A DNA stretch of 37,978 nucleotides, taken from assembly GCA_020341775.1 (NCBI GenBank), contig CP070835.1:1311963-1349940 (forward strand), in the 5' to 3' direction. Positions 506 through 13,283 of the stretch are shown in pieces. Source of the stretch: Candidatus Bathyarchaeota archaeon (GTDB lineage: Archaea; Thermoproteota; Bathyarchaeia; Bathyarchaeales; SOJC01). The translations under genes were made by a program, and so were the position numbers. The notes below the pieces were generated by a model. It was not told the origin of the DNA. It saw only the letters and a list, made by a program, of their open reading frames with translations, and made no database searches. Each line of letters starts with the position of its first letter. Positions within the stretch are counted from its first letter, which is position 1.

Positions 506-1048
506 ATGAGAGCCAAAAGAATTGGAGATCCTTTGAGTTGTCACAAGAATTCTTTGAGCCAAGTTTTAAATCTTGAAAGCCACTTAGTAATAGCGTCGAC
601 GAATTTGGTGGAGAATTGTATATTGAGTGAATCCAAATCATCTCGGATATTAAGGAGTCTTCCCCGAGACAAGGCCTTCTACTTCTTCACTTCCATTGGG
701 AATTATACAGGGGAAAGCGCTGCCTCTTTGGAGGAGTTTGTCAAGAAGATTCTGAATGTGCATGTGAAGTCTCTGGAGTTTCATATTTATAGGGGTGACT
801 TTGTGAAATGGATTGCTGGAACGCTGGAGGATAAAGCGTTAGCCGACAAAATTGAGCGTCTCAGAAAATTAAAGCCTATTGGCATGGACCTTCGGGATCG
901 TCTTTACCTAGTCGTTTCAAAGCATTATGAGAGTTTGAAGAAGTCGCGTCCAACTTCTGTGTCTACTTTTACAAAGCCGAAATCCACTACAATAGCTTAT
1001 AGCAGACCGCAGTCAAAAGAAGCTGTTTGGACTCAACTCGAAGAATAG
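506..1048 (+). CDS. DUF5752-like conserved archaeal protein
   Basis: 180 residues. The middle of the protein (about residues 50-120) carries the pattern I associate with the DUF5752 family: ...RDKAFYFFTSIGNYTGE..., then SLEEFVKKI, then KSLEFHIYRGDFVKWIAGTL and a following helix ADKIERL. The family is common in TACK and methanogenic archaea and has no known function; it is predicted to be cytosolic. The first 45 residues and the Ser/Thr/Lys-rich last 30 residues are not conserved in my memory of the family, so the ATG start at 506 is provisional; a GGGGAT about 12 bases upstream is only a weak ribosome binding site. The gene converges on the membrane protein gene and the two 3' ends overlap by 16 bases. 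Confidence 0.65.
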   Translation: MRAKRIGDPLSCHKNSLSQVLNLESHLVIASTNLVENCILSESKSSRILRSLPRDKAFYFFTSIGNYTGESAASLEEFVKKILNVHVKSLEFHIYRGDFVKWIAGTLEDKALADKIERLRKLKPIGMDLRDRLYLVVSKHYESLKKSRPTSVSTFTKPKSTTIAYSRPQSKEAVWTQLEE

Positions 1049-1992
1049 GCCATCTTGCGTGGGCGTATTAAGCAATTGCCTTGGCTCAGGGCAATTTTGG
1101 GGTTGAAGATCAGGGATGCAGCGTGACCGAGCTGGCCTGAAATATGTGTTGTCGGGGCAGTCTCTCTCTTTGGCAGTGTGAAATGTTTAGTTTTCTCATC
1201 TTTCGGATAATAATCGAGCTTCACGTTTGTTCTATGGGGTTGCTCATTGATTTCATCGACTGCCCCATAGATAGGATAGGGATTTTCATCAAGTAGATAT
1301 TGCAGAAGCTGCTCAGTGGAGTTGTCGGTGTCTCTTATCTCTACCCAGCCAATCCAGCCTATGACAACCTTGGCTCCTCTTCTGATCAACGCTTCTGCCA
1401 AAGTTGTTTCATTCAAGCTGTTACAGCCCATCAAAATAATAACGCAATCGCTGTCAAACCTTCCTTTCATGCTCAGATCCACAAAAGTCGGTCCGACTGC
1501 AAAGTATTTGCTATCGGTCCTTAAGAAATTTGCAATGCTAATTTGCGTTCCATAGCTTGAATATTCTTCTTCTTTTTGTGGGTCGTAGCTTTCTGATGTA
1601 AAAAGATCGATGAAATCGGTATCGCTTCTTACTGCTGAGTGGGCTCTTAGGACTATTATTTTGCCACCTCTTGATGGCAGGTCTTTGTAGAAGTTTATGT
1701 CGACCTCCTCACCCGGGTAGTATTTGATGTCAAAACCTGAAGCACCAAACAGAGAAGTAATCGTAGTGTTGAATTCTACGTTAATGTATGGCTCTCCTTC
1801 TATGGCTAACTGATCTACTATAGCAGCTGTCCAATTTCCGATATCGGTCATGAAATAAGTTGAATATACGACCACAGTGACCAGAAGAACCATCGTAACT
1901 AGGAAAACGCTGTAAAGCAGTTTACGGTTCAATCCTTTCTTAGACCTGCTACGCTTTTGCCCTCTCGTCATCGATGCCACATGACACCACAT
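1033..1992 (-). CDS. membrane-anchored caspase/CHAT-fold-like protein
   Basis: 319 residues. A short basic N-terminus (RGQKRSRSKKGLNRK) is followed by one hydrophobic helix at about 25-48, so most of the protein should lie outside the membrane. The soluble part has two motifs spaced as in caspase-fold peptidases: a beta-strand ending in His (KIIVLRAHS, His118) and 72 residues later a beta-strand ending in Cys (VIILMGCNS, Cys190), followed by the helix and strand TTLAEALIRRGAKVVIGWIG that is typical of CHAT and gingipain-like domains ('AEAF..AGA..VIG'). This suggests a His-Cys dyad. The C-terminal 70 residues are not recognised. Start is ATG at 1992 or ATG at 1971 (MTRGQK); neither has a clear ribosome binding site. 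It lies 55 bases downstream of the ligase gene in the same direction. Family assignment is by motif and predicted fold only. Confidence 0.6.
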   Translation of the reverse strand: MWCHVASMTRGQKRSRSKKGLNRKLLYSVFLVTMVLLVTVVVYSTYFMTDIGNWTAAIVDQLAIEGEPYINVEFNTTITSLFGASGFDIKYYPGEEVDINFYKDLPSRGGKIIVLRAHSAVRSDTDFIDLFTSESYDPQKEEEYSSYGTQISIANFLRTDSKYFAVGPTFVDLSMKGRFDSDCVIILMGCNSLNETTLAEALIRRGAKVVIGWIGWVEIRDTDNSTEQLLQYLLDENPYPIYGAVDEINEQPHRTNVKLDYYPKDEKTKHFTLPKRETAPTTHISGQLGHAASLIFNPKIALSQGNCLIRPRKMAYSSS

Positions 1993-2047: not shown

Positions 2048-3814
2048 TCATGTTGAGCCCACCTTTCTCATTTGATTCCGGTACATTTTTACTATTTCTT
2101 CATTTGTTGTTGCGCCCGTGGGTGCCCTGTCAAATCTGTAATTGCCTGTGAATCGGGGAAATCTTATCGCTAAGCCGCTTCCTTTGCGAATGACGCCCAT
2201 GGCACAGGTGTGAATGGGGCTGAGGGTTATTTCAGAGCCGAGAACCTCTAAAACAACTACGGGTTTTAACCACACGTCTGCTTCAACCATCGAGTTCACT
2301 TTTGGGTGTCTGTGAATAAGCTTGTGTTTTTTCATTATTTCCGGTAATCTTTCCAAGTCTTCATCGGTGAAACCTGTTCCGCACCTTGTTAATGTTTCGA
2401 AAACGTCTTTTTCAGGATTGTACGTAGCCAAAAGTAAGGCTCCATATGTTCCTGCTCGTTTTCCTCTGCCATAGAAGGCCCCTACAGCCACCAGGTCTAC
2501 AGTGTCGGTCATTTCGCTCTTGTATTCCCGCTTGTATTTTATCCAATTCCACCCTCTTGCACCTGCTTGATAAATCGAGTTTTTATCGACTGACTTACAC
2601 ATTATTCCTTCGCAGCCAGCTTCTACAGCCCTTTCAAAAAACTGTTCCAAGCCTTCCACGGTTTTGATAAACTCAGACGTTGAAGCTCTCACTCTCCTGT
2701 CTTCAACAACTGTCTGCTCCAGTTTTTTCCGTCTTGTCAAAAAGGGCTTCAACGTGAGGTCTTGTCCATTGAAATATAAAATGTCAAACATGAAAAGTGA
2801 AACTGGATGTTCTTCCATTGCTTCTCTGACGCCATATTTCCGTCTTCGGTGCATTAATTCTTGAAAAGGCTTCATTTCGCCAGTGTCAGCATTTATGGCT
2901 ACACATTCAGCCTCCATAATGACGCTCTTGGCTCTAACATTTTTTTTGATGAGTTCAGAAGCGTCTGGATATTGGTCTGTGATGTTCTCCAGGCGTCGGG
3001 AAAACAAGGTCACACGATCGCCTTGTTTATGAGCTTGAACCCGCTCCCCATCGTATTTATACTCGACCACGCATTTGCCTGAGAGTTTTTCTAAGATTTC
3101 TTCAGGTGAACCTAGCCTTTCTGCAAGCATCGGTCGTATAGGCTTTCCAAGGGACACTGCAAACTTTTCGATGCCTTTCAACCCTCTGCGGACAACTGTC
3201 TCAGCTACTTTTCCGAGGTCTGAAGATATGTTGTATGCTCTCTCTAGCTGGGCTCTTGCCTCTTTTCCTCCTCCATGGGCAATGGCTAAAGCATCTAAAA
3301 CAGTCATGTCTGCAATTCCAAGTCTCAGTGTTCCCGTCACGATTCTCAAGATGTATCTCGCTTCTTTTGGCGTGGCAGCCATTAAGAGTCCGGATAGAAG
3401 ACTCAGCTTCTTGTCCATCGAGCCCGCGCCTGAGGCTCTGGCCATTCTGTCAAGGGTGTCATAGACTTCTTCAACCGTTAATTGCTCGCCTTTGAACAGT
3501 GTTGCTTGCGCTTTTTTAGCCCGAAATTCTTGAGCGGTTTCTCCTATGTCTCCTGTTCTGGCGAGGTCTTCTCGAATTTCGTTCTCGCGTTTCCCTGTAG
3601 CCTTAGCGACCGCTTGGATAGCCAATTTCTCTGCAATGCCTATTTGGATGTCAACAAAGTCAGGATACAGTTTCCCTTGTGTAAGATAAACAACCTTGTC
3701 TATGAGGTCGTTTGAGGTGATTTTGAGAAGCTCCGCCAAGTAGTCAGTCATTTCAAGTCTTTTGGCTGTAGACTCAATTTTCTCATAACAATCAGCTACT
3801 TGGGAGAACTTCAA
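2048..3814 (-). CDS. lig: ATP-dependent DNA ligase
   Basis: 588 residues, the normal length of archaeal replicative ligases. It seals nicks in DNA (Okazaki fragments, repair) using ATP. An all-helical N-terminal DNA-binding domain (about 1-230) is followed by the adenylation domain with motif I KYDGERVQ (nucleophile Lys253), the Arg/Glu motifs (LFSRRLENIT, VIMEAECVAI), motif IV (EGIMCKS) and motif V (WIKYKREY), then an OB-fold domain ending in PRFTGNYRFDRAPTGATT. The start is TTG at 3814, with GAGGG six bases upstream (3821-3825). All catalytic motifs are intact. The membrane protein gene follows in the same direction. Confidence 0.95.
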   Translation of the reverse strand: MKFSQVADCYEKIESTAKRLEMTDYLAELLKITSNDLIDKVVYLTQGKLYPDFVDIQIGIAEKLAIQAVAKATGKRENEIREDLARTGDIGETAQEFRAKKAQATLFKGEQLTVEEVYDTLDRMARASGAGSMDKKLSLLSGLLMAATPKEARYILRIVTGTLRLGIADMTVLDALAIAHGGGKEARAQLERAYNISSDLGKVAETVVRRGLKGIEKFAVSLGKPIRPMLAERLGSPEEILEKLSGKCVVEYKYDGERVQAHKQGDRVTLFSRRLENITDQYPDASELIKKNVRAKSVIMEAECVAINADTGEMKPFQELMHRRRKYGVREAMEEHPVSLFMFDILYFNGQDLTLKPFLTRRKKLEQTVVEDRRVRASTSEFIKTVEGLEQFFERAVEAGCEGIMCKSVDKNSIYQAGARGWNWIKYKREYKSEMTDTVDLVAVGAFYGRGKRAGTYGALLLATYNPEKDVFETLTRCGTGFTDEDLERLPEIMKKHKLIHRHPKVNSMVEADVWLKPVVVLEVLGSEITLSPIHTCAMGVIRKGSGLAIRFPRFTGNYRFDRAPTGATTNEEIVKMYRNQMRKVGST

Positions 3815-13192: not shown

Positions 13193-13283
13193 TGGGCCCG
13201 GGGCGATTTGAACGCCCGACCAACAGGTTTCTCTTCCTGTCGATTATGAGCCTGTCGCTCTGACCGTGCTGAGCTACGGGCCC
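13193..13283 (-). tRNA. tRNA-Met (CAT) with 16-nt intron
   Basis: On the minus strand: acceptor GGGCCCG/CGGGCCC, discriminator A, D arm GCTC/GAGC, anticodon stem ACAGG/CCTGT, variable TGGTC, T arm GGGCG-TTCAAAT-CGCCC. Between the anticodon stem strands are 23 bases; removing 16 (13229-13244, canonical position 37/38) leaves the 7-base loop CTCATAA with anticodon CAT. The pairing CTC/GAG supports a bulge-helix-bulge splice site, though the fourth central pair is A-A. The intron repeats GACAGG of the 5' exon. Acceptor G1-C72 excludes the archaeal initiator; elongator Met is favoured, but tRNA-Ile2 (modified CAT) cannot be fully excluded. Confidence 0.85.

Follow-up and report, generated by a model that had tools for sequence, protein, structure and literature searches.

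A predicted membrane-anchored caspase-fold protease of Bathyarchaeota is linked to exported proteins with a VGG-type C-terminal tail

The window analyzed here is a stretch of 37,978 nucleotides from the genome of a Candidatus Bathyarchaeota archaeon (assembly GCA_020341775.1, contig CP070835.1, positions 1,311,963 to 1,349,940 of the forward strand). The gene at positions 1033..1992 of its minus strand encodes a protein of 319 amino acids, predicted to be a membrane-anchored cysteine protease with a caspase fold. Here we show by sequence analysis and structure prediction that this protein and its homologues have the predicted fold, a conserved histidine–cysteine dyad and a one-helix membrane anchor, and that they are linked, both genetically and by co-occurrence in genomes, to proteins with a characteristic C-terminus, the VGG tail. 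In this tail, at the end of exported proteins, the motif [P]-[VI]-G-G would be followed after a short spacer by a membrane helix and by basic residues on the cytoplasmic side. The protein is likely to be a membrane-tethered extracytoplasmic enzyme that sorts VGG-tailed proteins, and on present comparison it is best read as functionally similar to a sortase or an archaeosortase. The genome of the window organism is designated G000; other G numbers denote sampled genomes and L numbers denote loci.

Results and discussion

The gene and its product

The gene is a single open reading frame (ORF) of 319 codons starting with the ATG at position 1992. Many homologues begin at the residue that corresponds to Met8 (position 1971), and for this reason the alternative start may be the true one. 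Members of the family are present in 25 of the 61 close genomes, the window organism included, and a profile of the family matches in 97 of the 256 genomes of the class, which places the ORF beyond chance. In the phylum-wide sample a member is encoded in 64 of 398 genomes. Searches of the protein against Pfam, NCBIfam and the sequences of the PDB gave no match, and no Pfam family was found even at E-values up to 10. A profile search of the PDB sequences was discarded, since it returned nothing but dehydrogenases, matched around GAKVVIG in a way that resembles chance. The protein matches neither the sortase models (classes A to F) nor the exosortase/archaeosortase family PF09721 in Pfam and NCBIfam.

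The N-terminal transmembrane anchor is predicted at residues 25-43 (1864..1920, minus strand; hydropathy 2.54), preceded by a stretch rich in lysine and arginine. In the AlphaFold model, which was computed with 23 sequences (predicted local distance difference test score (pLDDT) 85.2, predicted template modelling score (pTM) 0.74), the helix covers residues 23-50. It is followed by a single domain and a C-terminal tail of poor prediction quality. The predicted catalytic His118 (1639..1641) is located just past core strand 3 (112-116), and the predicted nucleophile Cys190 (1423..1425) just past core strand 4 (184-187).

The top matches of the model in Foldseek were the anti-sigma factor DdvA (8rw5/8rot; E-value 2.6e-6), SAVED-CHAT, Csx29, separase, MALT1 and gingipain R. 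With VIA-align the best score was obtained for SAVED-CHAT (Z 16.6, root-mean-square deviation 3.2 A, 186 aligned residues), followed by gingipain RgpB (Z 15.8, 2.8 A, 183 residues), DdvA (15.4, 3.4 A, 172) and separase (15.0, 3.0 A, 173). Legumain scored Z 12.3 and several caspases about 12; the table of compared structures covers part of clan CD and leaves out peptidase family C11. The profile of the family was also aligned by hhalign with an alignment of CHAT domains, built from the PF12770 domains in 5 of 101 genomes of the class (probability 91%, E-value about 1e-6). This comparison pairs His118 with the histidine of the CHAT GHG motif and Cys190 with the cysteine of the NAC motif. Since the structure comparison and the profile comparison with CHAT agree, we accept that the protein is predicted to have the alpha/beta caspase fold of clan CD together with its dyad.

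The conservation of single residues was assessed in an alignment of 99 different members, each 200 amino acids or longer; shorter members were dropped, and the large protein of locus L078 was trimmed to its enzyme domain. His118 and Cys190 are present in all 99 members. Nearly as constant are Asp60 at the end of the first core strand, 55-60 (1813..1815; 98 of 99), Asp223 (1324..1326; 97) and Gly206 (97), as well as Arg116 (96) and Glu134 (1591..1593; 96), the latter in an insertion which separates the histidine and cysteine strands. Trp213, at the end of strand 209-213 (1354..1356), is found in 93 members. All of these positions are on the minus strand.

An N-terminal helix is predicted in 94 of the 99 members, and 91 of these 94 carry a net positive charge in the N-terminal flank. 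Past the helix the members contain 340 N-x-S/T sequons, compared with 151.5 +/- 11 in shuffled sequences, which corresponds to 1.38 sequons per 100 residues; the ligase and the Rad50-like protein encoded in the window contain 0.34 and 0.43, respectively. Because of the positive flank and the sequon excess, the catalytic domain is most likely located outside the cell.

The observations of the first-pass annotation of the window, which had been made from the sequence alone, are borne out by these results, and its interpretation is so in part. The ORF is real, with the minus strand to be added. The segments VLRAHS and LMGCNS that it had singled out hold His118 and Cys190, 72 residues apart, and AEALIRRGAKVVIG corresponds to residues 199-212. 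The single N-terminal membrane helix, the caspase/CHAT-like fold, the location of the two residues at the ends of consecutive core strands and their conservation agree with the model, the clan CD comparisons and the alignment described above. An extracytoplasmic position of the anchored catalytic domain is likewise predicted from the flank charges and sequons. The description as a poorly described archaeal family is also apt. Pfam, NCBIfam and PADLOC models do not match the window protein, and its named relatives are mostly from Bathyarchaeota.

Adjacent genes encode VGG-tailed proteins

The same annotation had seen no hint of a target in the neighboring genes. This does not hold for the relatives outside the window's ligase context. 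There the gene directly upstream of the protease gene often codes for an exported protein with VGG near its end, separated by a spacer from a helix and a final basic stretch. The bodies of the partner proteins that were scanned contain PKD, immunoglobulin-like, InlB-type or TSP3 repeats, or no known domain. For the count, 104 non-redundant loci and ORFs of at least 100 amino acids were considered, and [VI]GG was required together with a membrane helix and basic C-terminal residues. The loci include fragments at contig edges (e.g. L012, L016 and L022), whose neighbors were counted if they passed the filter for length and completeness. The combination was found in 43 of the 165 adjacent ORFs and in 6 of the 436 non-adjacent ones (p 2.7e-20, Fisher test). 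A tailed neighbor is present at 42 of the 92 loci outside the context in which a DNA ligase gene lies beside the protease gene. The partner at L283 is located at rank 2 and was not counted as adjacent, because a short ORF intervenes. If only ORFs ending in a helix and basic residues are compared, VGG is the commonest tripeptide near the helix of the adjacent ones (42 of 59); it is present in 5 of 51 non-adjacent ones.

The 43 partners fall into 19 clusters of protein bodies by BLAST, the largest with 21 proteins. The VGG motif is located 38-52 residues before the C-terminus. Thirty-one partners lie upstream and codirectional with the protease gene, at a median gap of 48 bases; six lie upstream in the opposite orientation, five downstream in the opposite orientation and one downstream on the same strand. 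A signal-like hydrophobic segment is present in 31 of the 35 partners with a complete N-terminus. The motif was first noticed in loci L067-L081, and the loci fetched later were used as a hold-out set. Within the class, 21 of 58 adjacent and 2 of 123 other ORFs of this set carry the tail (p 3.4e-10; 20 of 34 loci). The corresponding numbers for loci outside the class are 6 of 34 and 1 of 67 (p 0.006; 6 of 21 loci). At L282, also outside the class, a protein with a Fibro-slime domain (2435-3292) is encoded convergently with the enzyme homologue; its C-terminus, IGGTYVPIDTTSLL followed by a helix and KKK, is possibly a variant of the VGG tail.

Co-occurrence of enzyme and tail in genomes

Two tail models, A5 (19 rows) and A6 (8 rows), were built from the adjacent partners and run against the 256 class genomes; the p values given here were computed without phylogenetic correction. 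At an E-value of 1e-5, tails were detected in 59 genomes, 49 of which encode the enzyme, compared with 48 of the 197 genomes without a tail (p 4.7e-16). When only tails more than 3.5 kb from any enzyme found are considered, the enzyme is present in 31 of 41 tailed genomes (both, tail only, enzyme only and neither: 31/10/66/149; p 9.6e-8).

Matches to PF09721 were found in 161 of the 256 genomes at an E-value of 0.001, 147 of them above the cut-off. The tail shows no association with this family (40/19/121/76, p 0.23), and an archaeosortase is not favored as the cognate enzyme. The link between enzyme and tail is seen both in genomes free of PF09721 (16/3/16/60, p 5.6e-7) and in those bearing it (33/7/32/89, p 4e-10). 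G000 itself has six PF09721 matches; among the matches listed, the other genomes have one to three.

Genome G096 contains one enzyme match and 26 tail matches at an E-value of 0.01, of which 21 are distant from the enzyme at 1e-5. Nineteen distinct tails were read from 23 of its tail loci with a pattern that itself contained [VI]G[GA]; six loci gave none under this pattern. Their consensus, drawn by eye, is PVGGVVxPxNKLEILTPYLALAGL...KRRKD, and a lysine is present in the spacer of 17 of the 19 tails. Two modes are seen: a dedicated adjacent pair, and a housekeeping mode in which one enzyme is accompanied by many distant targets, as in G096. NCBIfam gave no match above cut-off at the tail region of the 16 tailed proteins scanned. 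The tailed protein of G175 (L198) contains the NCBIfam 'choice-of-anchor U' domain (74.6 bits, cut-off 32 bits), a name which presumably means that the domain occurs with varying anchors.

The target in the window organism

In G000 a VGG-tailed protein is encoded about 0.5 Mb from the protease gene (G000:C1:796606-797460). It is an InlB-repeat protein ending in QVVVGGFTTSINSS...WIKRQED. The first tail model, A4, gave no match in G000 at an E-value of 10. The protein scores 3.5e-6 with the broader model A7, in which it was not included, and 2.8e-19 with the clade model A8, of which it is a part. The phylum-wide search with A7 missed it, probably because fewer candidates passed the first look (9 versus 22), and for this reason empty rows in the tail-model searches are weak evidence.

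At locus L067 the gene order is target, enzyme, DUF5752 gene, Lrp/AsnC regulator, and the genes of clusters C10 and C11. The genes beside the G000 target match the L067 Lrp, C10 and C11 genes at 62, 47 and 45% identity. A VGG-tailed protein also adjoins an Lrp-like gene in G003, G006 and G008-G012, as judged by eye except for G003. In G107 (L200, 375-2878) the gene of a VGG-tailed protein directly faces those for DUF5752 and Lrp. The enzyme gene is missing from between them, and two enzyme copies are located elsewhere in this genome; L200 is apparently an intermediate of a split cluster. The Lrp, C10 and C11-like neighbors of the G000 target, the position of the targets beside Lrp genes in the relatives and the arrangement in G107 make it probable that an ancestral cluster was split and that the window organism is a derived case. 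The enzyme and DUF5752 genes probably moved beside the ligase gene, and the target stayed beside the Lrp/AsnC gene.

A run of 100 N lies between the G000 target and a gene for a family 4 glycosyltransferase (G000:C1:797513-797612), and the target in G003 is likewise cut by a run of 100 N. The idea that the G000 target is N-terminally deleted was dropped, as the gap accounts for the missing part. Repeats of the target gene may break assemblies. The Lrp/AsnC regulator and the C10 and C11 genes, which lack Pfam matches (G000:C1:794612-796553 and relatives), accompany the VGG target across many genomes.

Proposed mechanism and alternative explanations

We propose that the target is exported by Sec and that the helix of its tail would keep the precursor in the membrane, with the VGG and spacer region directed toward the active site. 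There His118 would activate Cys190 for a cut within or just past the VGG/spacer segment. An acceptor, such as the amine of a lipid or glycan, would resolve the acyl-enzyme, so that the protein is re-anchored in the manner of archaeosortase, sortase and PorU; alternatively, simple hydrolysis would release it. The S1 pocket of RgpB, described as arginine-specific, contains Asp163 of helix 1 and Trp284 of loop 5 (PMC4357240). Asp60 and Trp213, at the ends of strands 1 and 5, stand at about the places of these two residues, as judged by position in the fold and not by comparison of coordinates. By this resemblance they are a candidate S1-pocket acid and a candidate S1 lid, and a basic P1 residue is suggested; P1 is perhaps the spacer lysine rather than the Gly-Gly.

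Several observations weigh against a sorting function. Ten of the 59 tailed genomes (at 1e-5: G069, G099, G111, G115, G146, G159, G169, G175, G222 and G232) contain no detectable enzyme, and some of them are near complete; these cases could be due to a different enzyme, to gaps or to relic tails. Conversely, no tail was detected at 1e-5 in 48 of the 97 genomes that encode the enzyme. Outside the class the enzyme is present in 4 of 11 tailed genomes at 1e-3, for a base rate of 33 in about 322, a denominator that is itself inferred. None of the 12 loci in the ligase context, that of the window included, has an adjacent VGG tail, and the A7 and A8 searches found a single target in G000. Because of the 100-N gap just upstream, the N-terminal part of this target is absent and a signal peptide would be invisible. 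The Fisher tests ignore phylogeny, and 21 of the 43 partners belong to one homologous cluster. The hold-out set tests the motif and not the thresholds, since the later loci were already known when the numeric values of the criterion were chosen. Asp60 and Trp213 point to a basic P1, which VGG does not contain; the spacer lysine is common and not invariant. Cleavage and transfer are steps that we infer.

The sorting function itself is likely. We put forward tentatively, and at slightly less than an even chance, the more specific proposal that the enzyme is a caspase-fold transpeptidase, a 'caspasortase', which covalently re-anchors VGG-tailed surface proteins. It would exist both as a dedicated and as a housekeeping enzyme, and the virus-like contig L081 would carry it together with a target. 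An enzyme acting on the same substrates by hydrolysis only, which would shed or activate the surface protein and attach no acceptor, is an alternative of real though distinctly lower probability. It would fit the families of clan CD, which are listed as peptidases with P1 specificities in PMC4357240. The computed data indicate no acceptor, and the large PKD, immunoglobulin-like and InlB partners could be shed adhesins. The existence of PorU, a sortase that we presume to be gingipain-like, argues for transfer instead. Its sorting function is described in PMC8545088. Moreover, a motif, a helix and a basic tail on 19 different body clusters is the pattern of sorting signals that retain proteins at the surface, as these are presented in PMC11980579.

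Dedicated adjacent pairs would look identical if the VGG-tailed protein were a cofactor, inhibitor or scaffold and both proteins acted on a third one. This explanation is improbable, as 19 body clusters share the tail and G096 combines many tails with one enzyme match. We give slightly less credit still to the view that the tails are signals for an archaeosortase or exosortase, next to which the caspase-like gene would lie by accident or in an accessory role. PF09721 is indeed present in 161 of the 256 genomes, six times in that of the window organism, and in 7 of the 10 tailed genomes without the enzyme; against this stand the lack of a tail–PF09721 association and the enzyme–tail link that persists with and without PF09721. 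Least probable of all is the role that the first-pass annotation had considered, in which a CHAT-like protease would serve defence or regulated proteolysis and have no connection with surface-protein tails. SAVED-CHAT and Csx29 are among the closest folds. Nevertheless, PADLOC-DB 2.0.0 gave no match for the window protein, for the domain of L078 or for the member of L081, the neighbors in the window are housekeeping genes, and the predicted extracytoplasmic, membrane-anchored topology and the tail linkage also speak against this role.

Relation to known systems

The CHAT proteases (PF12770; Csx29 and SAVED-CHAT) share the clan CD fold and the aligned histidine and cysteine, and they include the best structural match. 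The family differs from them in the strand-helix insertion holding Glu134, which sets the two catalytic residues 72 positions apart, in the N-terminal anchor and in its failure to reach the CHAT gathering score (24 bits). The window protein itself is not matched by PF12770; 3 of 23 members are, with a best E-value of 3.3e-4, and the L078 protein scores 18.4 bits. In G017 and G095, which hold both families, the CHAT proteins are separate genes.

Gingipain R of family C25 belongs to the same clan and resembles the family in the approximate positions of Asp60 and Trp213. PorU is presumably a C25-like member of clan CD as well. It is described as a surface sortase that cuts the C-terminal signal and attaches anionic lipopolysaccharide (A-LPS) (PMC8545088). 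In contrast to C25 and PorU, the family has a single-helix anchor, and its signal is a motif, helix and basic tail rather than a folded C-terminal domain; the Pfam C25 model matched neither the window protein nor appeared among the 20 families found for 23 members.

GPI (glycosylphosphatidylinositol) transamidase is a multi-subunit complex of eukaryotes. Its catalytic subunit PIG-K/GPI8 (family C13) is, as we take it, a clan CD cysteine enzyme acting on C-terminal signals with a small residue, a spacer and a hydrophobic segment. It has no sequence match here, and legumain gives Z 12.3.

The prokaryotic enzymes named for tripartite C-terminal tails in PMC11980579 are sortase, exosortase/archaeosortase, rhombosortase and myxosortase. 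The archaeosortase ArtA and its PGF-CTERM signal likewise involve a tripartite C-terminus on exported archaeal proteins (PMC11980579), and archaeosortase provides a precedent for lipid anchoring in archaea (PMC7157517). ArtA is, however, described as a polytopic transpeptidase (PMC9263693) and is unrelated to the single-helix, caspase-like enzyme studied here, whose putative targets carry VGG and not PGF. The GlyGly-CTERM signal of rhombosortase has the same GlyGly motif, helix and basic tail, and in genomes with a single target the enzyme gene tends to lie beside it (PMC3237569). This pattern is similar to the present one, as is the contrast between dedicated pairs and scattered targets described there. 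Rhombosortase, in contrast, is a rhomboid intramembrane serine protease according to PMC11980579 and PMC3237569.

A C-terminal tail with a cognate enzyme is a known concept; a model for the VGG tail or for the enzyme is absent from the libraries searched. Among the literature matches listed (titles and abstract openings of open-licence PMC articles, without preprints), no caspase-fold archaeal sortase is described. No paper on the VGG tail was found under the tail names tried in the same collection. To our knowledge, the attachment of proteins to the surface of uncultured archaea such as Bathyarchaeota is largely unknown. If the transpeptidase proposal is correct, C-terminal protein sorting would have been solved in yet another, unrelated way, and the family would be the prokaryotic counterpart of GPI transamidase. 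If the sorting function is correct, the family would add another unrelated class to the enzymes named above and a new route by which microbes build their surface, by trimming and perhaps anchoring VGG-tailed proteins. It would also tie prokaryotic proteases of the caspase type to the biogenesis of the surface and not to cell death or defence. A family without a Pfam or NCBIfam model would gain a function, and surface proteins could be recognized from sequence by the VGG tail. The sorting function can be tested directly with recombinant enzyme and tail peptides.

Distribution of the family and further features of the window

Of 21 loci on named contigs, 17 are labelled as belonging to Candidatus Bathyarchaeota, two to Desulfobacterales and one each to Ardenticatenales and Desulfurococcales. 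In the two Desulfobacterales metagenome-assembled genomes (MAGs; L070 and L071) the enzyme homologue is followed by a gene of cluster C27, whose copy in L071 encodes a multihaem cytochrome. In L071 a VGG-tailed protein with TSP3 repeats is encoded upstream of the enzyme homologue. The presence of the enzyme in these MAGs reflects either transfer to bacteria or a binning error. The protein of the Ardenticatenales MAG (L078, 6186-8720) has 845 amino acids, with a long N-terminal region, a linker rich in Thr, Pro and Ser and a C-terminal enzyme domain.

The virus-like contig L081 (1-14807, IMGVR_UViG_3300032118_003140) contains a VGG-tailed protein and the enzyme as a pair. Its viral marks are a minor tail protein (phrog_290, E-value 5.8e-18) and weak head and portal matches. 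Because this contig carries the pair, viral use or spread of the system is possible, and viruses may move or use VGG sorting.

The DUF5752 gene of the window (506..1048, plus strand; PF19027, 39.6 bits) is convergent with the protease gene and overlaps its stop by 16 bases. Genes of this family (cluster C1) accompany the protease in relatives at 10 of 24 loci. The gene upstream of the protease gene in the window clade encodes an ATP-dependent DNA ligase (2048..3814, minus strand; PF01068/PF04675/PF04679), which we do not count as a component of the system. Genes for a nitroreductase and for Rad50-like and Mre11-like proteins are located further out. At 13193-13283 on the minus strand ARAGORN lists a tRNA-like gene whose anticodon has four bases (ataa) and to which no amino acid is assigned; it may be an intron-containing or a false tRNA.

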